Below are positions 4,012 through 48,813 of a DNA stretch of 49,061 bases, one piece after another; positions within the stretch are counted from its first letter, which is position 1; each line of letters starts with the position of its first letter. The translations under genes and the position numbers were made by a program. The DNA lies in assembly GCA_017962495.1 (NCBI GenBank), contig JAGCVH010000038.1, forward strand, positions 1-49,061. The letters run 5' to 3'. This DNA is from Bacteroidaceae bacterium. Lineage in GTDB: Bacteria > Bacteroidota > Bacteroidia > Bacteroidales > Bacteroidaceae. The notes under the pieces are model-generated. The model saw only the letters and a program-made list of their open reading frames with translations, did no database searches and was not told where the DNA came from.

Positions 4012-4033
4012 CTGTTCTGCATGGTTTGTGTTA

Positions 4034-4041: not shown

Positions 4042-4113
4042 CGATGAAAAGTGCATAGTGAAAAGCCCTATTTATAGTTTTTTGGGGCAATGAAACATAA
4101 AATAAACGTTTTT

Positions 4114-9100: not shown

Positions 9101-9420
9101 CCACGGAAGCCGCAGGCAAGAGCAATAAACCCACTATGGTTGAATATGCCAATGGTGTCATCACGGCCAAGAAGGTAGGCACTGCCGTCATCAGCTTCTC
9201 GTTCATCGACAGTTACGGCACTCGCAAGGCTACACGCATCAATGTTACTGTCACCGAGACTGATGCCGTCACCGACCTCAAGGGCGAAGTCCGTCCCGTC
9301 AGCGTGGAATATTATTCCACCGATGGTCGTCGTCTCGCTCTGCCTCAAAAGGGTGTTTACATCCAGCGCACTCGCATGAGTGACGGTTCAGTCAAGACCA
9401 CGAAGATTCTAAGACACTAA
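6115..9420 (+). CDS. GH5-GH43 bifunctional xylan-degrading enzyme
   Basis: A 1101-residue secreted two-enzyme fusion. A signal peptide ends at Q21. Residues 22 to about 400 form a GH5-type barrel with the acid/base in LELANEPV (E207) and the nucleophile in ITEIDW (E310). From about residue 428 a GH43 propeller starts (PIVNADFPDCDVIRVGD, base D440; acid E603 in GCEGSHMYHIGDYYYI), followed by a GH43-type C-terminal beta-sandwich (about 720-930) and a bacterial Ig-like (Big_2-type) domain (about 955-1045). The last 40 or so residues (YYSTDGRRL, GVYIQ) form the same sorting-like tail found in five other proteins here. The GH5 half probably cuts the backbone (endo-xylanase is likely from context, but the subfamily was not determined) and the GH43 half probably removes arabinose or xylose. 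Surface location is likely. Confidence 0.85.
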   Translation: MRKSILTTLVAICLPLIAWAQFGTIASLHVDGNQLKDEHGNTVVLHGFMDTPSPYFNSYRWGNSCNDNTVADCKTYFNRIFTAVTDTAQGAYCNLFRLHLDPCWTNDNSYNYAPAAAQPSGTTGEADISHFNPTRLKKYLSSLYYPIAQAAMKKGMYVIMRPPGVCPGNLKVGDYYQQYLLQVWDIVSQNTSVKKAAGWLSLELANEPVNLTDANGQNSDKALHDYFQPIVDKIRENGFTGIIWIPGTGWQSNYRSYAKYPITGYNIGYAVHDYTGWYGCSDSHYDHDDLIRQFHEAVPVVDTNPIVITEIDWSPTDPNKEGHYNEHGEWVQPNMGTWSTGSTSKWGLAYKNLHDHFGNISMTLSGSHCYFDWDTYAKSNYKTVVPSYGGEPEACAKACFDWYAEWAKEKQPRPDYAKKWSADSGNGYYVNPIVNADFPDCDVIRVGDTYYMLSTTMFHMPGATLLKSKDLVNWEYCSNPLKKILDNDDYNLLKGKNHYSQGMWAGSLNYHNGKFYIYFPCSTWSLDSQSVLLTATNPEGDWEDTRLNKTYHDPGWLFDDGPNGDGGLYVACGIGDIYVVKLNPTTYQEISSTKVISVGNGCEGSHMYHIGDYYYIYATYGGTEGSQTIFRATSPMGPYEEHDGRVFAGQKIHQGALVETQTGEWWTVLFRDAGSIGRIPYLEPVVWKDGWPTLGKNGRDVTENGTNYKKPDVGKSWPITYLPTNETFTSTRFGKQWQWNHNPDDTAWTLSRGWLRLATSGLSTDLWQARNSLTQRIPGYAKANLSTASASTYDTYGTVKMAIGNMADGDVAGLAVFQDPYALIGVKMENGERRLYSQRCEYTEHDWSIDKDVTYQAEEVLGDVVEADTIYLRTILNFATNKCRFYYSYDNKKWTAFGEQLTMRYTLKVFVGQRFYLFNYATKQNGGYVDIDWFSTEQDFTEEKFFAPGTLETLDPEDLMMVSLKPSMTDITMGVGTTREVKVFAVGKSGYERDVTTEAAGKSNKPTMVEYANGVITAKKVGTAVISFSFIDSYGTRKATRINVTVTETDAVTDLKGEVRPVSVEYYSTDGRRLALPQKGVYIQRTRMSDGSVKTTKILRH

Positions 9421-18425: not shown

Positions 18426-18432
18426 TAATAAT

Positions 18433-20161: not shown

Positions 20162-20192
20162 GAATCGGGAATCCCAAGGGAACTCCCGATTC
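20162..20192 (-). terminator. Terminator hairpin at the end of the xus operon
   Basis: GAATCGGGA (20162-20170) pairs perfectly with TCCCGATTC (20184-20192), and an inner TCCC/GGGA adds to the stem. Read on the minus strand the stem is followed by TTCTTTTATAT, a T-rich run. It lies 58 nt past the stop codon of the last xus-operon gene at 20250. It may also serve the convergent plus-strand operon. Confidence 0.65.
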
Positions 20193-20249: not shown

Positions 20250-22370
20250 TTACTTAACAAGAGTCTTTTTACCGTTCTTGATAACGATGCCCTTGTAATC
20301 CTTCGTTACACGCTGGCCAGCAAGGTTGTAGGCAACGGAAGAAGTGTTCTTCTCCTTAGAGATGCTCGTGATAGCATCCTCACCGCCATAGCAATAAGGA
20401 TCGGTGCCAGCACCTATCTTAACGTAGAAGTTCCTAGCGCCTTCCTGGTCGATGAGTGACTGTGTACCGTCCTCAAGTCTCCAAACAACATTCCAGATGG
20501 TGTACTGGCAAGCTTCCTTGATTTCAGCCATATTGAATGCGATAGACTGCATACCATTGGCCTCAGAAGGAACAGTGAACGTTGTAGAGAAGTGGTTCTG
20601 AACGGTGCTGAAGTTTACGTCGCCGATAGCGCCCCAGTGCAGGTAGTTACCTGGTGTGGAGTGACACTGCGTAGTGGTCTTAGCTTCGATAGAGCTGATG
20701 TAATCGAATTCGATAACAGTAGTTTCGCCCTTCTCAAGCGTACGGTTGGCAACAATCCAGAACTGGTTGTCCCAAGTCTGACCTGTACCACCTTCTTCTT
20801 CTCTAATCTGGTCGTTATCATCTGCGAGGTCGTCTCTCTCAATGGCATCAACAATAATCTCCGTTGGGTTAGGATTGATTTCGATAGGCTCGATGTCATC
20901 GCCCTCAATCATCTCGAATGCCATAGCCGTGTAAACATCATCGAGGTAAATCTTCCAGATACCAGCACCTGGGAGATTCAGCTTAGCAAGGCTAGCCTCA
21001 GTGTAGTCGAGCCACTCTCCTGGATCGTTGTGGATGGCGCCAGAAGGCTTAAGCGTAGAGCTCTTGAATGCAGCATCGTTACCGCGAACAGTAGAAATCA
21101 TAATCTGAGAAACATAAGCATCCTTCTCACCAATGGTAGCAGTGTACAAACCGTCAGCATCCGAATACTCGAACTGAACAGCATTGTCGAAATCATACTC
21201 AAGTCCCTCGTTGGGGTTGCATCCTGCAACGAAGTAACCCTCCTCGAGTTTCATGATCTTCCAAGAGAGGTCGTCGAAGTAGAAGTCAGTAGCACTCTTC
21301 TCATTGGGGTTAAGGTTGAATGCGATTGACCAACCGCCACCCATAGCATCGGAGAATGTGAATGTCCTGTCAAACTCCTGCCACTCGGGAGTGAAGGTAA
21401 CACTACCAACAGCCTCATAATGGAGGTAGTCAGATGGGTTCTGCTTGTGAATCTGGGTATCAGTGGTAACAGTCTTAGAAGCCTTGTAACGGAAGTGAAG
21501 CTTGATCTGTGTTCCAGCCTTCCAAGACTTTGGAGACTGAATCCAGAACTGGTTGTCCCATGCAGAAGCGTCGCCTTCAGAAGTAGCATCATTGGCATGA
21601 ACTACGAATACGTGATTGCCATCGGGCTCGGCTTCAATAGTAGCGGGGAAGGGATCCCAACCACCATCGTCATTCATGTTAACGCCCTTCTCCTTGCCCC
21701 AGGCACAAATCTTGTAGTTGTTCTCTGTGTCGTTGAAACGAGTGTCGGGATCAGCCCAAGGAGTCTCGGCATCACCATTGGTCAGCTGCTCAATCCATTC
21801 AACAGGGCGCTGCTCCTTCTGGTTGTGGGATACGGTAAGCCACTTCCACTCGATCTGAGCAGCAGTGTTGGGCTGTGCAACGAGGTTACAAGAAGAACCG
21901 CCAATGCCGCTGTACTCCCATTCAACCTCTGCCCATTCGGTGCCTACAGTAACAGAAGCACTGGCCTGTTCGCCAGAGCCCCAACCCCAACCCATGTTTA
22001 CGTTCATGGTAACGGGTTCTGATGCCTTAACCATTGCCTTGATAGTGTATTTGCCATCAATCTCGGTGGGGATACCATCGGCAATGAAATACTGGTGCCA
22101 TGTGCCTTCGCTTGCGAGGCGGTAGTACTCAACACCAGCCTGCGTGGTAACAATGACGTCGCTGGTTTGCTCAGCACCTTCAACTGTGGCATAGGTGTAG
22201 TTACCGCCAAGGTCGGTCATCACACCGTCCACCCATTCGGGTACATAACCCATTACGTAGAATGGGAAACCCTGATAAGTAGAGTAGTCAATCTTGTAAT
22301 CTTCTACCCACTCTGCCTTTGCTCCTAAGCATACTGCAAAGAAAGCAATCAGTGTAAATAATTTCTTCAT
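20250..22370 (-). CDS. Secreted multi-CBM xylan-binding protein (putative)
   Basis: A 706-residue protein with a type I signal peptide (MKKLFTLIAFFAVCLGAKA) and no lipobox. No catalytic domain is recognised. It holds at least three carbohydrate-binding-like beta-sandwiches. The second and third are clear internal duplicates: DNQFWI at 272 and again at 534, and NPSDYLHYEAVG (about 312) matching TPGNYLHWGAIG (about 573). The first (about 55-190) is related more distantly. A SusE/F-like domain (about 385-500) lies between the duplicates. The end (AYNLAGQRV, KGIVIKNGKKTLVK) is the sorting-like tail. It is the last gene of the xus operon, 69 nt after the GH10-like gene, and no promoter box is seen between them. 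A surface xylan-binding accessory protein is inferred from context and modules. Confidence 0.75.
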   Translation of the reverse strand: MKKLFTLIAFFAVCLGAKAEWVEDYKIDYSTYQGFPFYVMGYVPEWVDGVMTDLGGNYTYATVEGAEQTSDVIVTTQAGVEYYRLASEGTWHQYFIADGIPTEIDGKYTIKAMVKASEPVTMNVNMGWGWGSGEQASASVTVGTEWAEVEWEYSGIGGSSCNLVAQPNTAAQIEWKWLTVSHNQKEQRPVEWIEQLTNGDAETPWADPDTRFNDTENNYKICAWGKEKGVNMNDDGGWDPFPATIEAEPDGNHVFVVHANDATSEGDASAWDNQFWIQSPKSWKAGTQIKLHFRYKASKTVTTDTQIHKQNPSDYLHYEAVGSVTFTPEWQEFDRTFTFSDAMGGGWSIAFNLNPNEKSATDFYFDDLSWKIMKLEEGYFVAGCNPNEGLEYDFDNAVQFEYSDADGLYTATIGEKDAYVSQIMISTVRGNDAAFKSSTLKPSGAIHNDPGEWLDYTEASLAKLNLPGAGIWKIYLDDVYTAMAFEMIEGDDIEPIEINPNPTEIIVDAIERDDLADDNDQIREEEGGTGQTWDNQFWIVANRTLEKGETTVIEFDYISSIEAKTTTQCHSTPGNYLHWGAIGDVNFSTVQNHFSTTFTVPSEANGMQSIAFNMAEIKEACQYTIWNVVWRLEDGTQSLIDQEGARNFYVKIGAGTDPYCYGGEDAITSISKEKNTSSVAYNLAGQRVTKDYKGIVIKNGKKTLVK

Positions 22371-22439: not shown

Positions 22440-24128
22440 TTACTTTCCGCTAAGTGCATCGCAGAAAGCCTTGTAAGTAGCCGTGCGCACCCAATCCTTC
22501 TTGTCATCAATTGACCAAAGGCCTACGGGGTCATTGGTGTCTGCCATGTTGCCCTTGCAGATGCCTGCCTGCTTCTCGTGTGGAATCTTGTTCATGTAGC
22601 TCTTGATGACATGACCATAGAAGTCCGCAAGCTTCTGGCGTTGAGCGTCTGTGATGTCCTTTGCTGCGACATTTGCGCCTGAGGCATCCTGATACTTGAT
22701 GTCGAAGTTGGAAAGGCGGATGAGTTTGCCGGTAGAAGCAAGATTCTCGAGCAGGGCGTTAAGAGAGGTTTCCGTAGCAGCCTGAGTTGCTTCATCTTCA
22801 CTATAGTTGAGATTGAGCTTGGCATTGATGCCATCAATCTTTGCTCCCTTGGCGTCCCAAATACCAATCCAATACTTTAGGCTCTCAAACTTCTTTTCAT
22901 CCTCAAGACCAGACTCGGAGATGAAGAATCGCAGATCGGAGAGATTGCCACCATACTTTTCGAAGGCGTCACATGCTGCCTTGGAAACTTTCGGAGCATA
23001 GTTCTCACTGCCAAATACATCCTGCCAATAAATGTTATCAGTAGAGTGCTTAAGATCGAGCATGCCGTTGTCAAGTGTGGCATTAGGATCGATGGCCTCA
23101 TCAATGAGGTCGAACGACTTGATGCGACTTTCGTTAATCTTCATCAAACCATCGCACCAGGCATTGAGCGCATAGTTCATGGTGTCGTTCTTCTCCTGGG
23201 CTGTCTGTGGACGATGGTTGTCGGGATTGTGAACTACCGTAACCTTCTGGATGTAGACAATGGAGTTCAGATTACCCTCAATCATCAAATAACCCTTTTC
23301 AGCGCCTTCGGCAGGCATGGCCTCAACGACAACTTTTTGCCATTTACCAGCCTTGATGGGGTACTTCTTATCCTTTCCACCCTCCTGAATCTTGTTGTCA
23401 CAGAATGTGCAGATAATGGACTCGTCCGACTCTACCTGAGCCCAGAAAGTAACCGTGTACTGACCAAGCGGATCGACGTCGAAGTCCTCGACGATGTAAA
23501 CTCTTGACCTCTTGGGAATCTTAAGTGCATTGTCCTCGCCATCATAATTCTTTTCGATAGAGGGCTTACCGCTACCAATGACCGTGCCTGTGAACTCCTC
23601 CATAGTGGTGTAGTCGATGGTCTTGTCCTCAATGGACTCAACCCTGATTTCAATAGGAGCAGTAAGCACATTAAACCAGCTGTCTGCCTGATTAGCATTG
23701 GCACAGATAGGACTTCCAAACACCTCGGCACCGATTTCTTCGACATGGTCGAGGAGGTCTTTCATATCAAGGAAGTTCATAACGCCCTTCTCGTTGATGA
23801 TAGCACCAGACATAAGAGTGGTTCCAAATGCAATATTGTCGAAATTGGTGATAGCAGCAGCATGGGCCAGTTCCTGCTTATTGAACTCAGACACCTTGAG
23901 TGTTGCACCAAGAGACATATTGGGATACTTGTCCCTGTCGATGTAAGACTTAATAGGAGCATAGTCCTTGTAAGGCTCTACAAAAGTAGGATCAGGCTCT
24001 GCCGTGAAATTGTCCGTTTCATTATAGTCGGCACAGGAAGCGAGAAGGGCTCCCAAAGCCAACATGAAGAGACCGCCTTTCAAATTGAAAGATGAAAATC
24101 GAAAATTGAAAATTGCTTTCATATTCAT
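22440..24128 (-). CDS. GH10-like lipoprotein with inserted CBM, catalytically degenerate
   Basis: A 562-residue lipoprotein (lipobox ALLASC, Cys32). The fold is plainly GH10 xylanase with a CBM4/9-like insertion (about residues 145-315): compare DRDKYPNMSLGATLKVSEFN at the start, TAQEKNDTMNYALNAWCDGL before the acid/base, and YKAFCDALSGK at the end. The acid/base Glu is kept (E344 in FDLIDEAI, normally WDVVNEA), but the nucleophile Glu of the usual SELDM is Asn474 (RLSNFDI). The N-x-x-K, HxLxWH and QxH active-site motifs and the late Trp are also lost. It is therefore probably a non-hydrolytic surface xylan-binding protein. It sits where an active Xyn10 lies in known xus operons, 9 nt after xusE. 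The N-terminal codons resemble AT-rich intergenic sequence, so Met3 (24122) is an alternative start. Confidence 0.85.
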   Translation of the reverse strand: MNMKAIFNFRFSSFNLKGGLFMLALGALLASCADYNETDNFTAEPDPTFVEPYKDYAPIKSYIDRDKYPNMSLGATLKVSEFNKQELAHAAAITNFDNIAFGTTLMSGAIINEKGVMNFLDMKDLLDHVEEIGAEVFGSPICANANQADSWFNVLTAPIEIRVESIEDKTIDYTTMEEFTGTVIGSGKPSIEKNYDGEDNALKIPKRSRVYIVEDFDVDPLGQYTVTFWAQVESDESIICTFCDNKIQEGGKDKKYPIKAGKWQKVVVEAMPAEGAEKGYLMIEGNLNSIVYIQKVTVVHNPDNHRPQTAQEKNDTMNYALNAWCDGLMKINESRIKSFDLIDEAIDPNATLDNGMLDLKHSTDNIYWQDVFGSENYAPKVSKAACDAFEKYGGNLSDLRFFISESGLEDEKKFESLKYWIGIWDAKGAKIDGINAKLNLNYSEDEATQAATETSLNALLENLASTGKLIRLSNFDIKYQDASGANVAAKDITDAQRQKLADFYGHVIKSYMNKIPHEKQAGICKGNMADTNDPVGLWSIDDKKDWVRTATYKAFCDALSGK

Positions 24129-25341: not shown

Positions 25342-27162
25342 TTACTTCCAGCCCTTATTTTGCTTGAGCTTGCTCCATTTAAGTATCTCGCTCTTAGGAA
25401 TAGGACCATACCACTGATATGAGCTGTCATAATCACGTGGCTCAACAACGAAAACGGTGTATGAGAGCGTGTTCGTCTTTTTGTCACGTTCAATCTTCAT
25501 ACCCTTAACGGCTTCATTGAGAGGCATCTTCCAGCGACGGAGGTCCCAGAAGCGCTTGTTCTCGAAGCAAAGTTCGATGCGACGTTCGTTACGAATAAGT
25601 TCTGTCATGCGAGTCTGGTCGTTGGCACACTCTTCGAGATAGACGTCTCCTTCAGGAAGCGGCATTCCAATCTCGTTGGTTGCAAGTCCGGCACGTGTGC
25701 GGATGGCCTTGATCACGTCGTAAGCCGAGAAACCTACGCCATTGGGATCAGCCTTGGGTCCCCAAGCATCGTTGGCTGCTTCAGCATAAGCCAGGAACAT
25801 TTCTGTGTAACGAATGCGGGGATAGATGTGCTGCTGAGTAAGTTCTGTACCACTTGCCGTTGGACTTACGTCGTCACGAAGAAGCTTCTTCAGGTAGTAT
25901 CCTGTACGCGTAGAGGTACTTATATTAGTGAGATTGTCAGTAGACTCACTCTTGCTGTTAGGATAGTTTCCAGTGATGATATCGACCTTGCGGAAGATCA
26001 TGCCATTATAGATGACATTATCTTCGAGACGCGGATCGCGCTTCGCATAAGGATTCTGCGGGTCGTAACCAGAGTTGGCGTCTGTGATAGGAAGACCACT
26101 ACGCATGGGGAATGCATCAACGAGATTCTGGGATGGGTTGACACGACCATCACCATACAGTGATGGTGGGAAGTTTTCTGCCTCCTGCGTTGCATCTTTA
26201 ACACGGTCTGCGCGCCAAAGAATTTCGGGCATCTCTGATGCACTGGGTTCCAGTTTCGACTTATTCTTGTACCAGATGTTACCCGTTGCGTCAAAGCCAT
26301 TCAATCCACCTATACGCTTGAGAACATTGGCAGCAAGCCTTGCAGCCTCATAGGATGTCACGCCGCTTTGATCGCGGAAGGCAGGACTTGCAGCAAGAAG
26401 GGCAACTTGTGCCTTTATGGCTTCTGCAATCTTACCTGACATCAGATTCTTTGACTTTTTACCAAACACAAGGTTGTAACCCGAAGGATTCGCACCAAGT
26501 TCCAGATATTTCTCAGGAATCTCACTATTGCTTTCAATGTCAGCATAATCTACAGGAAGAAGTTCCATGGCCTGGTCACAGTCGTCGAAACACTGCTTAA
26601 TACAGCTCGCGAAGGTGGCACGAGGCTGGTTAAAGTCGGAACCTCCGTCTTCAGGAGTCGTAAGCAAGGGGACACCATAGAGCACGCCGTCATCAGCATA
26701 GCCTCCATGAGCCATCAGCAAGTAGTAATAGAAAAGGGCACGAAGGCCGAGGGCCTCACCTTTCAAACGGTCAATAAACATCTGCTGCTTGGAAGCTGCA
26801 CTGGGAGCCCACTTAACCTTGTCGACAATGGAGAGGAAAAGATTGACATACTGAATGCCATCCTTACATGCGTTCCACTGTGACACGGGATTATTGTCAG
26901 AAGCCCATGAACCAGTGGCCATATTCAGATAAGCACTGGTGGTCAGGTTGGTCACAGCGTCATCTGTAGCCACATCCGTCTGGGTACTTCTAGCGTATGG
27001 AAGTCGACCATAGGCATAAATCAGCAGTCCATGTGCATACGCAGACTCCTCGGTCATGTCTTCCAACTGTCGGTTGTTTTCAATTGCCGGCTCGAACATA
27101 TCATCGCATGAACTCATTACGAAGAGCGCGATGAAACAGAAAATTATATGTCTTGTCTTCAT
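25342..27162 (-). CDS. xusD: SusD-family xylan-binding lipoprotein (second pair)
   Basis: A 606-residue SusD/RagB-type lipoprotein (MKTRHIIFCFIALFVMSSC, Cys19). Features of the family: an N-terminal TPR-like helical region (GLIYAYGRLPYARST; GEALGLRALFYYYLLMAHGG) and the C-terminal RagB/SusD block (YPRIRYTEMFLAYAEAANDA; LIRNERRIELCFENKRFWDLRRW). It caps the partner TonB-dependent channel XusC on the outer surface and hands over oligosaccharides. It begins 14 nt after xusC. The symbol follows the xusABCDE order known from Prevotella bryantii and rests on synteny. Confidence 0.93.
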   Translation of the reverse strand: MKTRHIIFCFIALFVMSSCDDMFEPAIENNRQLEDMTEESAYAHGLLIYAYGRLPYARSTQTDVATDDAVTNLTTSAYLNMATGSWASDNNPVSQWNACKDGIQYVNLFLSIVDKVKWAPSAASKQQMFIDRLKGEALGLRALFYYYLLMAHGGYADDGVLYGVPLLTTPEDGGSDFNQPRATFASCIKQCFDDCDQAMELLPVDYADIESNSEIPEKYLELGANPSGYNLVFGKKSKNLMSGKIAEAIKAQVALLAASPAFRDQSGVTSYEAARLAANVLKRIGGLNGFDATGNIWYKNKSKLEPSASEMPEILWRADRVKDATQEAENFPPSLYGDGRVNPSQNLVDAFPMRSGLPITDANSGYDPQNPYAKRDPRLEDNVIYNGMIFRKVDIITGNYPNSKSESTDNLTNISTSTRTGYYLKKLLRDDVSPTASGTELTQQHIYPRIRYTEMFLAYAEAANDAWGPKADPNGVGFSAYDVIKAIRTRAGLATNEIGMPLPEGDVYLEECANDQTRMTELIRNERRIELCFENKRFWDLRRWKMPLNEAVKGMKIERDKKTNTLSYTVFVVEPRDYDSSYQWYGPIPKSEILKWSKLKQNKGWK

Positions 27163-27176: not shown

Positions 27177-30134
27177 TTAGAAGGTTGCTTTAACACCGAG
27201 GTTATAGAAACGAGTCTGAGGCGCATAGCCAATGCTTGTCTCCAACAACTTACGATTATTTGAAATTGTGAAGAGGTCGTTGGCATTGACATAAACTGAG
27301 AGAGCCTTTAAGATTTTTCTCTTAAACAAGCTTTCAGAGAAGTCATAAGTAATCTGCACCTTACGAAGGTTGAAGCGGTCTGTGGTATAGAGCCAGAATG
27401 TCGATGCTGCAGCATTGTGGTTCGAATTCTGCGAAGTCAGACGAGGATGAGTAGCCACGTCTGCTGTCTCTGGCGTCCAACGACCAAGTGCATTCACAGA
27501 GTACTTGTCTTCGTTCTTCATATAGTAGTAAGTATTGTTGTTCTTCAACCCGTAAGCACCAAACTGTCCGTTACCTACTACAAAGAGGGTGAAGTTCTTA
27601 TACTTGAGCGTAAAGTTTACGCCCTTTGTTACAGGAGCACCAAAAGCTCCATTTCTACCAAGATAGATCTGGTCCTTGTTGTCGATGGTGCCATCACCAT
27701 TCGTATCCTCATACTTCAGGTCACCCGGGTGGATGGCACCACCAAGAGAGGATTTGGGAAGACCGTCCTTCAAGGCGTATTCCGTCTTGCCATCAGCGGT
27801 CGTAGTGATGTTAAAGTCATCTGTGTTATAGAATCCCAGACACTTAAAGCCCCAAATGGCATCAAGAGGACGGCCCTGTACGTGTTGGTAATCGTACTCT
27901 ACGATTTCGTCGAACTTAGAGTAGTTCGTTTTGAGATAAGTACCCACAACTCCAAGAGCCACGTAAACCTTCTTAAACTGTTTCTGAGCCTTTACACTGA
28001 AGTCAAGTCCTCTGCGATTTTGAACATTGTTGTTGATAGCAGGCATGAACGTAGCTCCCGAGAGACCACCCTGCAAGTGAGAGGGGAATGTCGAAAGGTT
28101 CTGAACGATGAATCCAGACATGTCTGTATTGAAGAAGGTAAGGTCTGTGGAAAGAATCTTGTTGAAGAACGAACCACGAAGTGTTACAGAGTACTCTTTG
28201 CGATGGATGAAGTCGAGTGCAGGGTTACCACCCGATTGGGAGAAAGTATGACTAACACTTGTTCCGTCACTCCAACTGAAGTTACTGGTGTTTTCAGGAT
28301 TGTCCCATGTAGCATCGTAGAGATAGAAATAATTAGTATCCATATAGATATCAGCATCATCGCACAGGTTGCTGTATGAAGCGCTGAGCATCAGGTCATT
28401 GATGCGAGTACCTTTCAAGAACTTCTCTTTAGCAAGGTTCCAACCAATCGTGAAGGAGTGTGAAAGACCGTTGCGATTACCCTCTGCAAGACGGGCTGAA
28501 TGAACACCTGCCAATGAGATGTCAGCAAAGTATCGACCTAAATAATCGTATCCAGCTTGCAGACCTAAGTTGGCATTGGCATAACGATGATATGCACCAC
28601 TGGCTGTGGTAGTAAACATGTTTGCGAGAAGCATACCCGTTACATGATGCTTGCCAGCGAATGTGTGGTCATAGTCGAAATGACCATTCCAACTGATAGT
28701 CTGGCGATAAGCCGTATTTGACATAGCCATGTGGCCAGTAACGATTTCATCGTTCTGCTGGGTAATGCCTACGATAATGTCCTGCGCGTTATAGTTACTC
28801 CAGGTGGGGATGAACACTGCGTACTTGTTGTCATACGAAAGGCTATAGTTTGCAGCATAGTCGATGGCAAACTGTGTCTTGAACGACAAACCCTTCACGA
28901 ACTTGTCCATGTCATAGATGATACCCGCATCAAACTGGAACTGACGGCTAACATCTCTTGTTTTACCACCAAAATAGCAATCTGCAATCGCATTAGTCTG
29001 GGTTGCCTTGGTTCCTCCTGGGAAATACTTGCCATCGAGCAGGTTCAGCGACTTGTTAAGGATGGCTAGAGCCTTGGAGGCATTGGGATCGACCATGTCA
29101 ATAGGAATCAATGGTGCAGCATTCTCAGGGAAGTTAGGACGTGCGGTAGCAGCACTGGCCCAGAAGTCTCCCTTGTTCTTGTGGGCATTGTAGAACGTAG
29201 CACTTGCATTAGCAAATCCCTTGATGAATCTGTTGATAGTCAGGTCCACATTACCACGAACGCTGAAGCGGTCGGTGTAGTTGTCCTTTGCTGTACCAAA
29301 GTCAAGGAGGTCTCCCAAACGATAGTAGTTGATGTTCGTGTAGAAGTGAGCACGCGTACCACCGCCCTGTATCTCCAACGTAGCCTCCGAACGGTTATAT
29401 ACCTTACGGAGATACTCGTCGGAATAGTAGTTTACGTTGGGATAGCGATAAGGATTGACACCTGAAGCATGATTGTAGATGTCCATCTGGGTGTACTTCG
29501 GATTGAGTCCGTCATTCTTGCGGGCTTCGTTGTACAGTGTCATGTACTGTGCAGAACCCAGATACTCGGGGAACTCTTTTGCCACATGGAAACCTGTGTT
29601 TGCGTTGGCTGTAACCTGTAGTCCATCGATCTTGCCACGCTTGGTGGTGATAAGGATAGCGCCCTTAGCAGCCTTTGCCCCATAGAGCACTACGGCCTGC
29701 GCACCCTTGAGGAAGGTAATCTGCTCAATTTCGGAAGGAAGCACGTTGTTTGACGGACGCTTAACACCATCGATAATCACGAGTGGAAGGTTACTATTGT
29801 CGTTATTATCGAGACGTTCATTGTCCATACCCCATAGATTGTTGCCATTCCATCCGCCAACAAGAGCATACATGTCTTCAAGACTACTCATCGTATAGTC
29901 CTTCTTCTGCAGCTCTTCCATATCCACGTAGGAAATACCTCCGAGAAGCTGGTCAGGATCCTTGTCGCGGAAAGCAACATGGACTTTCTTTTTCGCCACA
30001 ACGGTATCAACGGTAGTTTCAGGGGCTTCATCATCCTCTATGTCCTGAGCATTGACCGTCAGTGGCAAAGCAGCAAACAAGGCAAATAGAAAAATGTTTG
30101 TTCTTATACTTTTCATAAAATTGTCAATTTTCAT
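27177..30134 (-). CDS. xusC: SusC-family TonB-dependent transporter (second pair)
   Basis: A 985-residue outer-membrane receptor. After the signal peptide (cleavage near V-N-A-Q, residue 30; Met7 at 30116 is an alternative start) it goes almost directly into the plug domain (PLVIIDGVKRPSNN; VLYGAKAAKGAILITTKRG), then the 22-strand barrel, ending TRFYNLGVKATF. It lacks the roughly 80-residue carboxypeptidase-regulatory-like domain that its paralogue XusA carries before the plug. The short acidic stretch at 31-45 replaces it. It is predicted to import xylo-oligosaccharides with XusD. It starts 23 nt after xusB. Confidence 0.93.
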   Translation of the reverse strand: MKIDNFMKSIRTNIFLFALFAALPLTVNAQDIEDDEAPETTVDTVVAKKKVHVAFRDKDPDQLLGGISYVDMEELQKKDYTMSSLEDMYALVGGWNGNNLWGMDNERLDNNDNSNLPLVIIDGVKRPSNNVLPSEIEQITFLKGAQAVVLYGAKAAKGAILITTKRGKIDGLQVTANANTGFHVAKEFPEYLGSAQYMTLYNEARKNDGLNPKYTQMDIYNHASGVNPYRYPNVNYYSDEYLRKVYNRSEATLEIQGGGTRAHFYTNINYYRLGDLLDFGTAKDNYTDRFSVRGNVDLTINRFIKGFANASATFYNAHKNKGDFWASAATARPNFPENAAPLIPIDMVDPNASKALAILNKSLNLLDGKYFPGGTKATQTNAIADCYFGGKTRDVSRQFQFDAGIIYDMDKFVKGLSFKTQFAIDYAANYSLSYDNKYAVFIPTWSNYNAQDIIVGITQQNDEIVTGHMAMSNTAYRQTISWNGHFDYDHTFAGKHHVTGMLLANMFTTTASGAYHRYANANLGLQAGYDYLGRYFADISLAGVHSARLAEGNRNGLSHSFTIGWNLAKEKFLKGTRINDLMLSASYSNLCDDADIYMDTNYFYLYDATWDNPENTSNFSWSDGTSVSHTFSQSGGNPALDFIHRKEYSVTLRGSFFNKILSTDLTFFNTDMSGFIVQNLSTFPSHLQGGLSGATFMPAINNNVQNRRGLDFSVKAQKQFKKVYVALGVVGTYLKTNYSKFDEIVEYDYQHVQGRPLDAIWGFKCLGFYNTDDFNITTTADGKTEYALKDGLPKSSLGGAIHPGDLKYEDTNGDGTIDNKDQIYLGRNGAFGAPVTKGVNFTLKYKNFTLFVVGNGQFGAYGLKNNNTYYYMKNEDKYSVNALGRWTPETADVATHPRLTSQNSNHNAAASTFWLYTTDRFNLRKVQITYDFSESLFKRKILKALSVYVNANDLFTISNNRKLLETSIGYAPQTRFYNLGVKATF

Positions 30135-30157: not shown

Positions 30158-32215
30158 TTACCATCCTGGATTTTGAGGGAATCCTTCGTAGAGATACGTA
30201 TCCTTGTCAGGAAGTGGGAACCAATAGTGCTTAGACTCCAACGGACGAACGATGAGCACTTCCTTGTGGAAGTTTGCCACCCTTGCATCCATGGGATCGT
30301 GCAACGGTTCGCGAGTGTTCTTATTAAAGTACCAGTCGTCATTCTCCAAACGCTCGAACTCATGAGAGTATTTCACGGTGTAAGGAGGTTCTGTCAGGAG
30401 AAGCCAACGCTGAAGGTCGCACCAGCGGTGTCCTTCGAAGGAAAGCTCCACAGCGCGTTCACGACGAACTTCATCGATGAAATGCTCACGGGTGTCCATG
30501 AGGTTAGCCTGTACATGCTCCATAGGATAATCGCTTGAGTTCACACGATCGCGAAGTGCGTTGATTGCGTCAACAGCAGAGAATGCCATACAATAATCAG
30601 GCTTTTCCTTGAGGTCGCCCACTCCGTTTGCAATAGCGGCTCTTGCCTCAGCATACATCAGGTAGATTTCAGCAAGACGCATGTAGGGGAGATAGCACTG
30701 GAATTTATAATCCCATTCATACCATCTATCACCCTGGTTACACTGGTGAGGCACCAGTTTCTGGATGAAATAGCCTGTGCTACTTCCACTATCGACAGCA
30801 CGCATGGCACCACCCGTGTAAAGGGTGCAGTAGTCATACTTCTTCTGGTCGGAAGTTAGTGCGTCGATGCTGAGCACATAACGGAAACCGTCGAATATGA
30901 TATCGTGATAGAATCGTGGGTCGCGATTCTTGAATGGGTGCTCAGGATCCCAACCCGATGCGGGATTCAATACATACTCACCATTCCGTACGAGATAGAT
31001 GGGTTGTCCGTTAGCCATTCCGTACTGGTCAACAAGGTTTGCTGTGGGGTGGTGGATAATCTTGTCGTGGTCCACGATACCTGCCACCTTAGGACCAAAT
31101 ATCTTTGCACAGTTCCAGTTGGCTGAATTAACACCTGGATAAGCACCACGCATGATGGCTTCTTTTACACCGGGCATTTTCCAATCTTGATTGACGGTAT
31201 AGAAGATGTTAGAATAGTTGTTTTCAGTATCACTATTTTCATCAGCCGTATGGTTGTACAGGTCAGAATACTTGAACTCTGCAAGTTTATACTTAACGGT
31301 ACCCCTATTTACCATATCAAGAGCCTTGCCAAGAGTCTCGGCAGCCTTCTTACAGTAATTCACGTCATAGTCGTATGTCTTGCCGTTGGCACTTGCACCT
31401 AACAACTGAGCAGCACCACCCGTCTTGGTCTTCTCAAACTCCTTCATGAGTGGAGAACCTGCCCACAGATAGCACTTGCCAAGGTAGCACAGTGCAGTGA
31501 ACTTGTCGACGCGTAGATCGTTCTTGTTAATTGTATGCATACCGGCAAGCGTCTCGTCCCAGTCGAGAGGAAGAAGATCGTAGGCACGTTCGAAGTCTTC
31601 TGCACAACGATCGGCACACTCTTGGAAAGAGAGGCGTGGCAGTTCGGGAATGCTTGCAGCCTCAAAGGCTTTGTCGATGTATGGCAGACCGCCAAAGTAG
31701 CACATCAGCTCGAAATGCCACCATGCACGGAAGAAATACATCTGCCCAAGCAACAGGTCGCGTTCTTCGTCTGTTCCAACAAGCGACTTGATATTCTCAA
31801 TACCCATATTACACTTACGGATGCAGTACCATGAGTTGTCCCATAGAGATTGGGTTCTATCATTATAGAAATTACCCTTAAGCCAGCATTGGTTGTTGTA
31901 ATACCAGTTACGATAGTTGCCAAGGTCCACCTGATGGTCCATGTGTGCGAAGCCTTCTGTGTTGTGAACAGCATCGTCACCAAAGTTCCACGCGGTACAA
32001 TAATTGACCTTCTCTTTATCCGGAATCAAGTAATAGATTTCCTCAATATACCCTTGGAAATTGCGGTAGTTCTTGAATGCCTCATCCTCTGCCACGATGG
32101 ACTCTGGTTCCTTGTCGAGCCAGTCAGAGCATGCAGTGAAGGTTAAGCCAACTCCCATAAGAAGCAGCATACCGCTAAATAGGGACTTTATGTTGTTATA
32201 ATAATTCATATCCAT
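30158..32215 (-). CDS. xusB: SusD-family xylan-binding lipoprotein (first pair)
   Basis: A 685-residue SusD/RagB-type lipoprotein. The hydrophobic leader ends in FTAC (Cys29). SusD signatures: GQMYFFRAWWHFELMCYFGG near residue 160, the helical TPR-like core, and the C-terminal block (LPYMRLAEIYLMYAEARAAI; RRERAVELSFEGHRWCDLQRW). It is longer than SusD2, with an extended middle loop region. The partner is XusA, whose gene ends 20 nt upstream. Role: outer-surface capture of xylan oligosaccharides for the TonB-dependent channel. The symbol is by synteny with the Prevotella bryantii xus operon. Confidence 0.93.
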   Translation of the reverse strand: MDMNYYNNIKSLFSGMLLLMGVGLTFTACSDWLDKEPESIVAEDEAFKNYRNFQGYIEEIYYLIPDKEKVNYCTAWNFGDDAVHNTEGFAHMDHQVDLGNYRNWYYNNQCWLKGNFYNDRTQSLWDNSWYCIRKCNMGIENIKSLVGTDEERDLLLGQMYFFRAWWHFELMCYFGGLPYIDKAFEAASIPELPRLSFQECADRCAEDFERAYDLLPLDWDETLAGMHTINKNDLRVDKFTALCYLGKCYLWAGSPLMKEFEKTKTGGAAQLLGASANGKTYDYDVNYCKKAAETLGKALDMVNRGTVKYKLAEFKYSDLYNHTADENSDTENNYSNIFYTVNQDWKMPGVKEAIMRGAYPGVNSANWNCAKIFGPKVAGIVDHDKIIHHPTANLVDQYGMANGQPIYLVRNGEYVLNPASGWDPEHPFKNRDPRFYHDIIFDGFRYVLSIDALTSDQKKYDYCTLYTGGAMRAVDSGSSTGYFIQKLVPHQCNQGDRWYEWDYKFQCYLPYMRLAEIYLMYAEARAAIANGVGDLKEKPDYCMAFSAVDAINALRDRVNSSDYPMEHVQANLMDTREHFIDEVRRERAVELSFEGHRWCDLQRWLLLTEPPYTVKYSHEFERLENDDWYFNKNTREPLHDPMDARVANFHKEVLIVRPLESKHYWFPLPDKDTYLYEGFPQNPGW

Positions 32216-32235: not shown

Positions 32236-35200
32236 TTAAAGATAGAGCTTAAATCCGAAGTTAAAACGTCTGACTGTGGGATAGGCGCCCTGACCACCAG
32301 AGAAGTTATAAAAACCACCTACGCCATTAGACGTATTAGTGAGGTTACTCTCGCGGTCATCAGGCATCTTCGTAATCAGGAAGAGGTTGTTGGCATTCAC
32401 ATAAAGCTTCAGGCTTGAGAAACCAATTTTCTTAATCCAGCCCTTAGTCCATGTGTATGCTACTTCCACATTCTTCAATCGGAAGAACGAGCCATCGAAG
32501 AGGTACTGAGTACCATAGTTCCATTCTTCCTCGTTCTCAGGAGCTCCAGTAGTAAAGCGCAGGGGAACGACATCTGCCGTTGCAGCCGAAGGATGCCACT
32601 GAGTACCAGTATCATATACGGTAAGAAGGGTACTTGGGAAGGAGCGTAATGTCACGTCACGAGTGACGCCAAACACGCCATAAAGCTGAGCAAATATACT
32701 GAAGCCCTTCCACTCCCATCCGATTGTAGCATTATAGGTGTGCTCGGGAGTTCCCGTGTAGCCGTAAGGAGCCTTATCGTTTGTTTCGTCAATCTTACCG
32801 TCACCATTGAAGTCAACGAGATAATGGTCGCCAATGAGAACCTGATTGTCGTTCTTCTCACGATATGGCGTACTATAGAGTTCGTCGTAGGTGCCAATAA
32901 AACCTCTGTCGATAAATGATACGTATTGTCCCTGAGAATAACCTTCTGCCTTACGATAGCTTGGAATCAGTGCGGGGTCATCCTTTAAGATAATAGTATT
33001 GTGCGCGTACGTATAGTTGGCATTTGCCCAGAAACGCATGCCATTGCTCTTCAGCACCTTATTGAAGCGCAGTTCAAACTCGAAACCTGAGTTCTTCATC
33101 TTACCCTTATTGATGTCCGGAGTCTTTGCAGCACCATAGAATGAAGGCACGGTGCGATCGGCTCCAGAGATGAAGATGTCAGTACGGTCGTCGCGGAACC
33201 AGTCGAAACTACCTGCAAACATACCATTGGCAATGGCATAGTCGAAACCAATGTTCTTCTTTGTTACCGTTGCCCAACGAAGGTCGGGACTGGCAATGGT
33301 GCTTTCCTTATAACCCGTGAACGGGCTGTTGGAACCGTCAGTGGCCATCGCAAACGGGCCATTAACCTCCCAGTTCGTCAGATAAGCCCAACGGGCACCT
33401 GCATTATCATCACCAATCTGACCAATGGAGCCACGAATCTTGAACATGTCAATGATTCCCTTCTCTCTAAGCTTGTCCATGAATTTCTCTTCCGAGAGCA
33501 TCCAGCCTGCAGCTCCTGAACAGAAGAAAGCGAAGCGGTTTTCAGGAGAGAACTTTTGTGAACCGTTGTAAGCACCGTTGAACTCAGCGAAATACTTGCT
33601 CTTAATGTCATAAGTGGTACGGAACACCCAGTCCTCACGACGCCACTCAAGGTCGGAGTTATTGGCATCGATACGACGTTTCCAGTTACCCATGGCAGTG
33701 ACATTGTGGATTCCAAACTGGCGAGCCCAATAGAGTTGAAGTGAATATTCTGTTCCACGGCTCGTCGAACTTATGCTGCCGTCTTCCTCATCCCAAGTGC
33801 GGGGTTCATAGAAATCAAAACCTGTGCTCGTGAAGATGTCCTCTCCGTGAACAAACACACCATCCTCTGGGAGAATATATGCTGTCTTTGTTTGATGCTG
33901 GTCATAGATACCGCGATTACCTTCGTCAAAGCGGTTGTCCCACGATATTGTACCACGCAGGAGCAGGCCCTTTGTGATGAAATCGAGCTTCTGCTCGAGC
34001 GAGAAGTCAGTATAGATACGTGTAATGGAGTTTAGCGCATAACCAGTGGTTGCCAAATTCATAGGAGAGTTTGCAACGTTGGAAGCAAATTGCTTAGAGA
34101 AACCCCATGAACCATCTGAGTACTTAACAGGGAAGATGTTGGGTGGCATACGATAGGCTCCCACCCAGTTCTGAGCCTGAAAGTGCTCAGCTGTATTATT
34201 ATAATAATAGTGTGGAGTCTTCTGACGTGCATTAGAACCAGCCAGACTTACCTTAAACAAAGTGGTCTTTGTGATTTGGAAGTCCAGGTTTGAACGGACA
34301 TTCAAACGATTGTATGTATAACCACCTTTATAACCCTGATTGTTCTCACGAATTCTTGTCATATCGCCTTCGTTCTGGAAGTCGAATGCCACAAAATACT
34401 TCACATACTTAGTACCACCAGAAATATTGAGGTTCGTATTATAAGACAATGCAAAGTCCTTGAACATCTCATCCTGCCAGTCGATGTTAGGATAGCGTTC
34501 AGCCATGCTATAATCGCCAAGATATTTGCCTGCAGCATCATAATGAGGCTTCACGGTATGATCCTGGTTGCGGAAGTTGTTGATGAAAGTTTGCGGACGA
34601 TAATATGCCCACGAACCAGCACCACCTAAAGCCAACTCATGTTCGATGGCCTGATTGCGGTACATATATCCGTCGTAAGAATCATACTTGTGCGGAAGCT
34701 TTGACACGGCCTTCAGGGTAGCGTTGAAGCCAACGTCGATTCTTGCCTTGCCTTCCTGACCACGCTTTGTGGTTATAAGGATAACGCCATTAGCTCCCTC
34801 GACACCGTAAACGGCCGTAGCAGATGCGTCCTTCAATACCGACACGGTAGCCACAGACGTGATATCAACAGACTTAATGTCACGCTTAACTCCATCGACG
34901 AGGATCAGAGGCTGAGCATCCTGATTCCAAGCCGCAGCACCACGAATGTAGATACGTGGGTCTTCCTCACCAGGCTGACCAGAAGAAGCAACTGTTACGA
35001 CACCTGGAAGGTTACCAGTGAGGGCTGAGCCAACACTACCTATACCTGCGGTGCGTTCGAGGACTTCGCCCGTGGTCTGCGCAATTGCACCCACGACAGA
35101 GGCTTTCTTCTGCTGACCAAAACCTACCACCACGACTTCATCCAGCCGGTTATCGTCTTCAAGCACGATTTTTAATGTCCGTTGCTTGTCGATCTTTACT

Positions 35201-35490
35201 TCCTTCGTGGTCATACCAACATAGGAAACCACCAGTACCGACTTCTCAGAAGGCACCTTCAACTGGAAGTTACCGTCGATGTCAGTAAGAGTACCTACGC
35301 CAGTTTGGCCTTTCACCAATACCGTTGCACCTATCAAAGGCTCCGCGTTATTGTCTGTGACTGTACCCTTTACCGTGATGCTATTCTGAGCATACAGCAT
35401 AGAACTGCATGTGAACAGCATCAGAATCGCGGGAATGGTCTGTCTAATCAACCGTTTCAGATTCTTCGATTTTGACAGATTTTGATTCAT
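32236..35490 (-). CDS. xusA: SusC-family TonB-dependent transporter (first pair)
   Basis: A 1084-residue outer-membrane receptor, first gene of the xus operon. After the signal peptide (cleavage near L-Y-A-Q, residue 35) lies a carboxypeptidase-regulatory-like domain (VKGTVTDNNAEPLIGATVLV; VVSYVGMTTKEV), then a TonB-box-like LDEVVVVGFGQQKK (about residues 117-130), the plug (PLILVDGVKRDI; AVYGVEGANGVILITTKRGQ) and the barrel, ending VRRFNFGFKLYL. It is predicted to import large xylo-oligosaccharides with XusB. Two promoters lie upstream: a regulated-looking one at 35543-35586 and a canonical one at 35717-35748. Confidence 0.95.
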   Translation of the reverse strand: MNQNLSKSKNLKRLIRQTIPAILMLFTCSSMLYAQNSITVKGTVTDNNAEPLIGATVLVKGQTGVGTLTDIDGNFQLKVPSEKSVLVVSYVGMTTKEVKIDKQRTLKIVLEDDNRLDEVVVVGFGQQKKASVVGAIAQTTGEVLERTAGIGSVGSALTGNLPGVVTVASSGQPGEEDPRIYIRGAAAWNQDAQPLILVDGVKRDIKSVDITSVATVSVLKDASATAVYGVEGANGVILITTKRGQEGKARIDVGFNATLKAVSKLPHKYDSYDGYMYRNQAIEHELALGGAGSWAYYRPQTFINNFRNQDHTVKPHYDAAGKYLGDYSMAERYPNIDWQDEMFKDFALSYNTNLNISGGTKYVKYFVAFDFQNEGDMTRIRENNQGYKGGYTYNRLNVRSNLDFQITKTTLFKVSLAGSNARQKTPHYYYNNTAEHFQAQNWVGAYRMPPNIFPVKYSDGSWGFSKQFASNVANSPMNLATTGYALNSITRIYTDFSLEQKLDFITKGLLLRGTISWDNRFDEGNRGIYDQHQTKTAYILPEDGVFVHGEDIFTSTGFDFYEPRTWDEEDGSISSTSRGTEYSLQLYWARQFGIHNVTAMGNWKRRIDANNSDLEWRREDWVFRTTYDIKSKYFAEFNGAYNGSQKFSPENRFAFFCSGAAGWMLSEEKFMDKLREKGIIDMFKIRGSIGQIGDDNAGARWAYLTNWEVNGPFAMATDGSNSPFTGYKESTIASPDLRWATVTKKNIGFDYAIANGMFAGSFDWFRDDRTDIFISGADRTVPSFYGAAKTPDINKGKMKNSGFEFELRFNKVLKSNGMRFWANANYTYAHNTIILKDDPALIPSYRKAEGYSQGQYVSFIDRGFIGTYDELYSTPYREKNDNQVLIGDHYLVDFNGDGKIDETNDKAPYGYTGTPEHTYNATIGWEWKGFSIFAQLYGVFGVTRDVTLRSFPSTLLTVYDTGTQWHPSAATADVVPLRFTTGAPENEEEWNYGTQYLFDGSFFRLKNVEVAYTWTKGWIKKIGFSSLKLYVNANNLFLITKMPDDRESNLTNTSNGVGGFYNFSGGQGAYPTVRRFNFGFKLYL

Positions 35491-36064: not shown

Positions 36065-38719
36065 ATGAAAAAAATACTCTTTTTACTCCTTACCATCCTA
36101 CTTCCAACAGCCCTCAAGGCACAGGAAAGACGCCCTATCGACGCCCAACACCCATTGTGGATGATTCACGTCGACGTATGGAATGCTGCCGATCCGCAGA
36201 AGATCATCAACTTGATTCCCGAAGACATTAAACCATACGTCTGCATGAACCTCTCCCTCTCTTGCCAGTTCGACACGGAGAAGAATGTGTACAAGATGCC
36301 GCAAAATGCCGTTCGAACCTACAAATCATGGGGCACCGTGTGTCAGCAAAACGGGCTGTGGTTTACCTGCCAACCCGCATCGGGCGGACACACCCACATC
36401 CAAGACACAGACTTGGAGACATTTGAATATTTCTTCCGTCATTTCCCCAACTTCCTTGGCTGGAACTACGCAGAACAGTTCTGGGGCTTCGACGAGAAGA
36501 ACTCGAAGAACGACCTGAGTTCTTCATTCCAGGCCGACCGCATCGCCCTGTTTGCCAAACTGGTGGAGATGTCGCACAAATATGGAGGTTTCCTCACCGT
36601 ATCGTTCTGTGGGAACATCTGGAGCCACGCCCTGAACCCCATCGGAATGCTGAAGCGTAACGCATCATTGCTAAAGGCCTGCCGCAACTATCCCGAAGCC
36701 ATTCTGTGGCTGTATAAATACACGACATCGGCATGTTTCTACAACAACGAAAGCGTAACCTACGGCCCATACATTTCAGGTATAGCAAAGAATTACGGCG
36801 TGCGCTATGACAACTGTGGCTGGAACGGTGCCATGGAGTCGCTGGTAGGGGCTGACAAGACGAAATACCCCATTGCCGCAGGCATAGCTACCGTAATGGA
36901 ACAGATGGCGGTAAACGGCGGTGCCGTATGGGACGGTCCGGAACTCATCTGGACGGAAGACTTCAAGGAAACGGGAAAGACCACTGTGGACGGTTATACA
37001 CGTCGCAACTGGGCTACTTTCGACGGTTTCCAAGGAGTTTGGATCGATATGTTCCGAAAGGTTATCGACGGCACCATCTACATCCCCACTCGCGAGGAAG
37101 TGATGGAGAAGACAAAGGTGATAGTTGTGAACAACGTGACTTCGGGAAGCGACGAGGAACGATATGCCGCATGGGGTGACCTCTACGACGGGCTGTACAA
37201 GCAAAACGATCCCATGAACAAGGGCGACGGCAGGTGGATGAACAACTTCTGTTACTTCAAATCGACTGGTCGCTACGGGGCCATCCCTATCGTTCCTGCC
37301 ATGTACGACAATCTGGTGAAGTCAGTGCCTGTAAGAGTGAGCAAGTCGGCTTACACCTCGCGTTGGCAAAACATAGACAAGAAAGTTGCAGAGTTCAACA
37401 AATACTATCCCGAAGTAAGCACGGGCGACTTATATGTCAACCGCTATCGCAACCAACTGGTGACTTACACGCCTTACAGCTATCTCAACAAACTGACCAC
37501 GGCAACAGGCCACATTCCCTTGCTCTACAACACTTGCGACAGTCTGCATCTGACATTGGGCAAACTGGGAAGTGCGCTGGTGCGTGAATATGCCGACCAC
37601 ATCGACCTCTACCTCAACAATTACCGTACGGACACCACCACACAGGTGAAAGAGGACATCGTGATTACAGGTGTTACCTCCGAACCTTCGTACACTATCA
37701 ACAAGCGACTGCGCGCCTCAGCAGTAGCCGTGCCAACATGGGATGCCGAGAACGGCATATATACCTTAAGTGTAAAACACTTGGGAGGAGTGGACGTTAC
37801 CATTAATTGCCAAGGAAGCGCCACAGGCAAGCAAACTGACACGTTACCCAACACATCGCTAACGGCCGACCTTCCCAAGCAACCAGACGAATACAAGGGT
37901 GAAATCATCATCGAGGCAGAGGATATGGATACCAAGAGCGTAAAGAACTGCACTACAAGTTCCTATTATTCTCACCCCAATGTAAGAGGACACGCTGGCA
38001 ACGGATTCGTGGAAATGGGAACCAGCACCTCTGGGGCATTACGCCACCAACTGGAACTGAAAGAAGCTGGAACCTATCGCGTGCAAGTAAGATATATGTG
38101 TACCACCAAAGCTGGCAAGATACGCATTACTGCCAATGGCAAGAGCACGATAGTGACAACGGAAAAGACAGCGGATAACGAATGGCTGAAGGTATCACTT
38201 GACGACGTAGCCCTAAAGGCAGGCACCAACAACCTCATTGTCACCAACGTAGGCGGTCTTCCTATCTTCATCGATCAAATCATCTATTCACCTGCCGACC
38301 TCGAACCCGAGAAGTTCCTCATCACCATTCGCAAGGCAAGCTACGGCTCCATTACCGCAAATGTGAGTGAGGCAGCAGAGGGAGAAGAGGTGAAACTCAC
38401 CATCAAAGCCACAGAAGGTTACGGGTTGAAGGAACTACAGGTGGTCAACGGCGTCAACTTCACCATGAAAACGATGATGAGTTTGGAAACACTGGACAAT
38501 GGCAATACCACCCTGACCTTCATCATGCCTGACGACAACGTCACCTTGCAACCCGTCTTTGCCAAAGGAGTGAACGTCGTTGACGGCATTACCTTGGTGG
38601 AAACTGCTGGAAGTCAGTCGACACCCATCTACGACCTCAATGGTCGCATTGTCCCTGCGTCCTCTGCACGCTCGAGACACATCTATATACAAAATGGTAA
38701 GAAGATAATGAGACCATAA
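36065..38719 (+). CDS. GH98 endo-xylanase with CBM6-like module
   Basis: An 884-residue secreted enzyme. The signal peptide (MKKILFLLLTILLPTALKA) is followed by the GH98 catalytic barrel (about 22-350: HPLWMIHVDVWNAADPQKII; FLGWNYAEQFWGFDE with E137; RYDNCGWNGAMES; VWDGPELIWTED with E293) and the GH98 C-terminal domain (to about 595). A CBM6/35-like module (IIIEAEDMDTKSV to IDQIIYSP, about 603-735), a beta repeat domain (about 740-830) and the sorting-like tail (IYDLNGRIV, HIYIQNGKKIM) follow. GH98 includes blood-group endo-galactosidases, and also the endo-xylanase of Bacteroides ovatus that cuts highly substituted corn glucuronoarabinoxylan. The neighbours favour the latter. It is first in a five-gene operon and probably surface-located. 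Confidence 0.88.
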   Translation: MKKILFLLLTILLPTALKAQERRPIDAQHPLWMIHVDVWNAADPQKIINLIPEDIKPYVCMNLSLSCQFDTEKNVYKMPQNAVRTYKSWGTVCQQNGLWFTCQPASGGHTHIQDTDLETFEYFFRHFPNFLGWNYAEQFWGFDEKNSKNDLSSSFQADRIALFAKLVEMSHKYGGFLTVSFCGNIWSHALNPIGMLKRNASLLKACRNYPEAILWLYKYTTSACFYNNESVTYGPYISGIAKNYGVRYDNCGWNGAMESLVGADKTKYPIAAGIATVMEQMAVNGGAVWDGPELIWTEDFKETGKTTVDGYTRRNWATFDGFQGVWIDMFRKVIDGTIYIPTREEVMEKTKVIVVNNVTSGSDEERYAAWGDLYDGLYKQNDPMNKGDGRWMNNFCYFKSTGRYGAIPIVPAMYDNLVKSVPVRVSKSAYTSRWQNIDKKVAEFNKYYPEVSTGDLYVNRYRNQLVTYTPYSYLNKLTTATGHIPLLYNTCDSLHLTLGKLGSALVREYADHIDLYLNNYRTDTTTQVKEDIVITGVTSEPSYTINKRLRASAVAVPTWDAENGIYTLSVKHLGGVDVTINCQGSATGKQTDTLPNTSLTADLPKQPDEYKGEIIIEAEDMDTKSVKNCTTSSYYSHPNVRGHAGNGFVEMGTSTSGALRHQLELKEAGTYRVQVRYMCTTKAGKIRITANGKSTIVTTEKTADNEWLKVSLDDVALKAGTNNLIVTNVGGLPIFIDQIIYSPADLEPEKFLITIRKASYGSITANVSEAAEGEEVKLTIKATEGYGLKELQVVNGVNFTMKTMMSLETLDNGNTTLTFIMPDDNVTLQPVFAKGVNVVDGITLVETAGSQSTPIYDLNGRIVPASSARSRHIYIQNGKKIMRP

Positions 38720-44857: not shown

Positions 44858-48813
<3,956 letters not shown>

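Follow-up and report, generated by a model that had tools for sequence, protein, structure and literature searches.

A catalytically dead, xylan-binding GH10 protein is already known from loci of the kind described here. In PUL-XylL of the human gut bacterium Bacteroides ovatus, BACOVA_03431 was described in 2015 as an "inactive GH10" that is located on the surface and binds BGX and CX; the DUF5627 protein encoded beside it, BACOVA_03430 (PDB 3N91), did not bind xylan (PMC4491172). That paper stated that BACOVA_03431 was at the time, in 2015, the sole natural inactive GH10 on record, and the "inactive GH10" mentioned in PMC4855328 and PMC11610566 is again BACOVA_03431. The 2015 paper likened the protein to the GH18 chitin-binding lectins, in which a glycosidase fold has lost catalysis and binds a polymer; these lectins differ from the protein considered below in fold family and in substrate. 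A second point of reference is the group of surface GH10s whose barrel is interrupted by a CBM4 module, such as BACOVA_04390 and BXY_29300, of which the characterized members are active (PMC4491172, PMC4855328).

The window analyzed here is a stretch of 49,061 nucleotides from a Bacteroidaceae bacterium (assembly GCA_017962495.1, contig JAGCVH010000038.1). It encodes a 562-aa GH10-like lipoprotein (22440..24128, minus strand), predicted to be catalytically dead, whose barrel is interrupted like that of the CBM4-interrupted surface GH10s and their relatives in the same family. Like BACOVA_03431, it is a GH10-related lipoprotein without the nucleophile Glu and occupies the slot after SusC-SusD-SusC-SusD-DUF5627. 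However, the two proteins differ in size (750 aa in BACOVA_03431), in the residues at the nucleophile and acid/base columns (Asp and Asn in BACOVA_03431, Asn and Glu in the window protein), and in the gene that follows (GH30 versus a CBM protein). The matches listed in searches of the open-licence literature showed no report of the clade to which the window protein belongs. New relative to the earlier work are this large clade, mostly from ruminants and with other replacements, its CBM partner, and the repeated loss of catalysis in the slot.

The operon and the altered active site

The GH10-like gene is the sixth of a seven-gene operon on the minus strand, with the order SusC-SusD-SusC-SusD-DUF5627-GH10-like-CBM protein and intergenic gaps of 9 to 69 bases. 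The first gene encodes a SusC-like TonB-dependent transporter (32236..35490) and is followed by genes for a SusD-like lipoprotein (30158..32215), a second SusC-like transporter (27177..30134), a second SusD-like lipoprotein (25342..27162), and a BT_3987-like_N/DUF5627 lipoprotein that is the counterpart of BACOVA_03430 (24138..25313). Downstream of the GH10-like gene lies the gene for a 706-aa CBM protein with three CBM4-type modules and a plain signal peptide (20250..22370). This gene, which the first-pass annotation did not cover, is by sequence the last of the operon. A terminator-like hairpin of 14 pairs 3ʹ of it (20162..20192, minus strand) likely marks the operon end; it is a consensus match only, and the region holds 11 terminator-like sites against 12.7 expected by shuffling.

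The GH10-like open reading frame has an ATG start, an intact frame and a lipoprotein signal, LASC-ADYN, with the lipobox LASC ending at Cys32, a residue unchanged across all 31 aligned clade members. Pfam matches GH10 over residues 311-550 only (E 9.9e-13), and the GH10 profile score of 48.4 bits lies above the curated cut-off of 22.1, which identifies the fold and homology as GH10. When the profile of the 31 clade members was aligned with that of 11 interrupted GH10s whose motifs are intact (probability 100, E 3e-68), RLSNFDI fell opposite the template nucleophile segment VSELDM, with N474 facing the Glu. Column-by-column alignments of nine close orthologues with one degenerate, one interrupted and one canonical GH10, together with a wider table, gave the replacements N103 to T, K106 to M, H139 to S, W143 to A, H144 to N, N343 to D, Q437 to K and H439 to N. 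Asn474 thus stands where a GH10 xylanase has its nucleophile Glu, HxxxWH is replaced by S139/A143/N144 and QxH by K437/N439, and in the acid/base N-E pair Glu344 is present with Asp before it. No Glu occurs among the top four residues of any column from 470 to 478 across 80 clade members. A direct PDB sequence search with either the window protein or the clade profile as query returned zero matches, and an NCBIfam scan gave nothing useful.

These columns had been read in the same way in the first-pass annotation, which claimed that the nucleophile Glu had become Asn474, that N-x-x-K, HxLxWH and QxH were gone, and that N-E had become D-E with E344 kept. All of this is seen in the alignments. 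An alignment with Glu at the nucleophile position, named there as contrary evidence, was looked for, and Asn474 was found instead. At the level of sequence, then, GH10 homology, loss of the catalytic set, conservation and operon membership are established.

Conservation across the clade

From a scan of species genomes, which yielded 486 confirmed relatives, the best 80 were retained. Among these, 79 are orthologues with 62-93% identity over the best segment; the eightieth, L181, is 37-40% identical to the window protein. Some of the 80 loci are the same contigs as other loci fetched. Because loci were picked by similarity to the window protein, they are a sample of the clade and not of GH10 at large. 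The 79 orthologue genomes are named Prevotella, Prevotellaceae, Bacteroidaceae, Bacteroidales, Muribaculaceae (one) and uncultured bacterium (one). Their record titles give a ruminant stomach compartment as source in 21 cases, deer in 3, the RUG label (presumably rumen uncultured genomes) in 31, and none in 24; the records of Prevotella sp. P5-92 and Prevotellaceae bacterium MN60 carry neither a MAG nor an uncultured label. Since a whole clade of dead GH10s occurs in largely ruminant-gut genomes, GH10 counts there may overstate the number of xylanases.

Within the clade, the catalytic losses are fixed and not decaying. Among the window protein and the 79 orthologues from the best 80 of 486, the nucleophile column holds Asn in 79 of 80 and Asp in one, and M106, S139, P140, A143, N144, N435 and K525 are invariant (80/80). 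Of 123 sites kept in 90% or more of the 25 relatives with intact motifs, all 25 of which have Glu at 474, 24 have switched and become fixed in at least 95% of the 80 clade members, 51 are the same in the clade, and 48 are not fixed. The last group includes N103, H439 and W526; part of the old active site therefore varies. The ratio dN/dS was 0.084 between the window and L103, and ranged from 0.067 to 0.274 (median 0.18) over the pairs whose dS lies between 0.1 and 1, which are 66 out of 3160. That the gene is a decaying pseudogene of a surface xylanase would fit the disappearance of several catalytic residues, but the frame is intact in the window, the script reported no internal stop in 80 clade loci, and dN/dS lies well below 1 with the replacements fixed. 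Decay is accordingly unsupported and has next to no probability.

The survey of GH10 homologues that had been suggested as a check gave a corresponding picture. Among the fetched loci, after rows matching via CBM modules only and fragments were set aside by hand, the nucleophile column reads Asn in 80 and Asp in 1 of the 81 distinct ORFs of the clade. The non-clade ORFs readable at both catalytic columns comprise 60 with Glu/Glu, including L098 with a broken HxxxWH motif, and 4 without the nucleophile Glu; the replacing residues outside the clade are Gly (L042/L054), Ala (L099) and Asp (L095 and L183).

One residue of the old catalytic pair, E344, is Glu in 78 of the 80 proteins. A protein that still acts as an enzyme, by an altered mechanism or on another substrate, might pair E344 with one of the substituted residues (Asn474, Lys437 or Asn144), and many of the old active-site replacements are indeed fixed instead of drifting. 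However, positions 106, 139, 143, 144, 437 and 474 have changed together, and BACOVA_03431 in the same slot was inactive on xylans (PMC4491172). Retained enzymatic activity is therefore very unlikely.

Judged from sequence, the window protein is probably a former GH10 xylanase that now binds glycan at the cell surface and serves xylan capture. Having lost its cutting residues while being conserved within one and the same set of transport genes across dozens of species, it most likely holds plant xylan rather than cutting it. This reading is supported by the fixed replacements, dN/dS, the kept gene order, the orthologous PUL-XylL operon, the xylanase-type CBMs next door and the GH98, GH115, GH43, GH51-type and GH95 enzymes encoded in the window. 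Two observations count against it: the retention of E344, which a purely structural role would not call for, and an insert too diverged for Pfam to recognize a CBM in the window protein. Moreover, the relationship to BACOVA_03431 is distant and the substitutions in that protein are different ones, so the window protein need not share its ligand. The first-pass annotation had proposed selection for binding instead of decay; lost catalysis and maintained selection are borne out by the dN/dS range and the fixed replacements, while the surface location, xylan as the ligand and the part of the protein that would bind it are inferred.

The insert, the CBM neighbor and the cutting enzymes

The insert of the window protein lies at about residues 161-305. 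A Pfam scan of the protein gave no CBM match there, and the clade insert profile matches module 1 of the neighboring CBM protein (probability 95.4, E 1.7e-8), matches the insert of intact GH10s weakly (probability 63, E 6.8e-5), and does not match modules 2 and 3 of the neighbor; control barrel slices in this comparison matched nothing. The earlier description of the fold and CBM insertion as intact therefore holds for the existence of the insertion but is too strong for its state, given that the insert has diverged and lacks a Pfam CBM match.

In the 706-aa neighbor, the CBM4-type modules lie within approximately residues 22-190, 190-385 and 498-645, with a stretch of another type between. 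Pfam found no family in this neighbor at E<=0.001; in the wider family of such CBM proteins, CBM_4_9 (PF02018) is matched at E<=0.1 by 30 of 49 members, the window's own member not among them. Module 1 of the family profile matches 4MGS (E 2.7e-20) and 4QPW (E 6.2e-20), whose deposited GH10 chains have 150 and 142 residues. We take both to be the CBM of a Bacteroides xylanase, one of them presumably solved with xylohexaose. Against the insert of intact-motif GH10s, modules 1 to 3 reach match probabilities of 98.6, 96.3 and 96.1 in turn; by sequence, they are related to the modules that interrupt active GH10s. Dockerin type I was matched at E<=0.1 in 5 of the 49 family members (best 9.9e-8), which is unexpected for such a PUL protein.

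The gene order is preserved across the clade. DUF5627 lies directly upstream of the GH10-like gene in 76 of 80 loci, the remaining 4 starting at a contig end, and a gene of the 706-aa type lies directly downstream in 80 of 80; the script identified 77 of these, those of L113 and L133 were recognized on inspection, and in L159 the frame runs open at the contig end. In L114, the CBM gene is split into two ORFs. The visible share of SusC/SusD in each locus depends on the flank length fetched, and the genes beyond the CBM gene vary. In L113 (12976-15315) and L133 (8508-10841), an intact-motif CBM-interrupted GH10 directly follows the dead GH10 and its CBM neighbor, so that cutter and binder versions stand side by side.

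That the neighbor carries the xylanase-type CBMs, while active-site residues and insert of the GH10-like protein are altered, also suits a structural scaffold of the SusCD complex, in which the barrel would dock proteins and bind no sugar, leaving glycan binding to SusD and the CBM protein. That the adjacent DUF5627 counterpart BACOVA_03430 bound no xylan speaks for a scaffold, but xylan is bound by BACOVA_03431, which sits in the corresponding slot (PMC4491172). Conservation of 51 of the 123 enzyme sites likewise speaks against a scaffold, though perhaps these are kept for the fold alone. A scaffold is unlikely, though more plausible than a surviving enzyme.

Under the preferred reading of xylan capture, the products of the seven-gene operon would assemble in the outer membrane to capture and import complex (glucurono)arabinoxylan. 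The GH10-like lipoprotein, with its barrel and diverged CBM insert kept and its active-site motifs lost, should hold xylan without cutting it. Together with the two SusD proteins and the separate CBM4-type protein, it may offer chains to the SusC pores and to enzymes, GH98 among them.

The enzymes encoded in the window include GH98, GH115, GH43, GH51-type and GH95. The GH98 gene (36065..38719, plus strand) adjoins the operon start on the opposite strand, and its catalytic Glu and Asp align with E361/D467 of BACOVA_03433; given that both are kept, the protein is probably an active endo-xylanase. Unlike BACOVA_03433, a surface lipoprotein, it has a plain signal peptide, as does the two-domain GH5-GH43 enzyme (6115..9420, plus strand); no lipobox was found in either. 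GH115 (1516..4056, minus strand) is 47% identical to the PUL-XylL GH115. The genome of the window, 85% complete, has three GH10 matches including the window protein. Of the other two, L001 has all motifs and L002 keeps both Glu residues with HALVWG, by eye, in place of HxxxWH; neither looks to be of the CBM-interrupted surface type. The proposal that surface endo-xylanase activity falls to GH98 and GH5 is thus only partly supported: the GH98 residues are kept, but neither enzyme has a lipobox and two further GH10s retain both Glu residues.

Several features beside the operon were also observed. A C-terminal tail, Y[DN]L.G....(G).YI.NGKK, is common to the proteins encoded at 36065-38719, 38769-42296, 44858-46366, 20250-22370 and 12721-16350. 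It is perhaps a sorting signal and may route GH98 and the other tail-bearing proteins outward; NCBIfam secretion-tail models had no match in the three of these five that were scanned. The last of them is a 1209-aa secreted protein with a sub-cut-off Pfam match only and no useful NCBIfam match. A DUF6057 membrane protein (16560-18425) and a PD40 propeller protein (18373-19941) are encoded beside the operon, and ORFs of similar start and length follow the cassette in L103, L108 and L118.

History of catalytic loss in the slot

The first-pass annotation had placed the window protein in the slot of an active Xyn10 in xus loci. Intact-motif GH10s do occupy the slot: in nine loci of relatives from the same family (L034-L038, L052, L053, L100, L101), an orthologous SusC-SusD-SusC-SusD-DUF5627 cassette precedes a GH10 that, unlike the window protein, has an intact catalytic Glu pair, HxxxWH and QxH. 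However, the closest same-slot comparators found are PUL-XylL-type loci. The same cassette precedes a degenerate GH10 in the window clade, L042/L098/L099, L095 and L183; SusC1 lies outside the fetched stretch in some cassette loci. L183 corresponds to BACOVA_03431. Its locus lies in genome G320; there, the product of the gene preceding the GH10-like one is identical to 3N91 over 322 residues, GH30, GH98 and GH115 follow, and SusC, SusD and DUF5627 are 39-50% identical to the window proteins. L095 was ruled out as BACOVA_03431, as it is followed by a beta-helix-type protein and GH115, not by GH30 and GH98.

In a GH10 tree of 46 rows, in which 20 of 43 inner branches are weak, the window clade is supported at 100/100 and has as its sister L181, with all motifs intact (100/99), among intact-motif interrupted GH10s. 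A single clade of all degenerate GH10s was rejected on this tree (p-AU 0.0016); a pairing of the window clade with BACOVA_03431, involving long branches, was not (p-AU 0.167). A search of 399 genomes of the family with L181 as query gave no full-length match above 45% identity and partial matches up to 58%, so the intact sister comes from one MAG (G483, 83% complete, 4% contamination).

On a tree of four cassette partners, one loss shared by the window clade and BACOVA_03431 was rejected (p-AU 1.1e-7), as was one shared by the window clade, L183 and L095 (8e-8). A union of the L042 group with L183 and L095 was strongly rejected (1e-10); for the window clade and the L042 group, rejection was only marginal (0.0285). 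These tests, run under LG+G4 without mixtures, take the history of GH10 from its neighbors, and an exchange of the GH10 gene by itself would make them misleading. The sister of the window clade on this tree is L034/L036, at a weak 74/68; L181 is unplaceable because its contig starts at the GH10 gene.

The dead state requires three changes on the partner-gene tree. L104 was dropped from both topology tests and count because most of its columns are empty, the split gene L043 was left uncounted, and L098, which keeps both Glu residues, and L102, a fragment, were scored dead for a broken HxxxWH. The count stays at three with L098 and L102 uncounted or L043 alive, and rises to four with L098 and L102 alive. 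Two losses of catalysis in the slot are well supported, and a third is likely. The evidence leans, if modestly, toward a broader reading, in which this slot of Bacteroidaceae xylan loci would have switched from a cutting to a capturing role on three or more separate occasions, with different residues each time, in the window clade, in PUL-XylL with the second locus of the same genome (L095), and in L042/L098/L099 from the genus of that genome. In the window clade, the GH10-like protein and the free-standing CBM protein would form a capture module of two parts, constant amid a varying set of enzymes. If repeated conversion is true, these groups are natural replicates for asking why the transport complex prefers a binder over a cutter there.

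Within the third group, HxxxWH is broken in all of L042, L098 (8033-9793) and L099, and only L098 retains both catalytic Glu residues, which suggests that the motif was lost before the Glu residues. In genome G090, a CBM-interrupted GH10 is present as two ORFs in the same cassette slot (L043:5937-8719).
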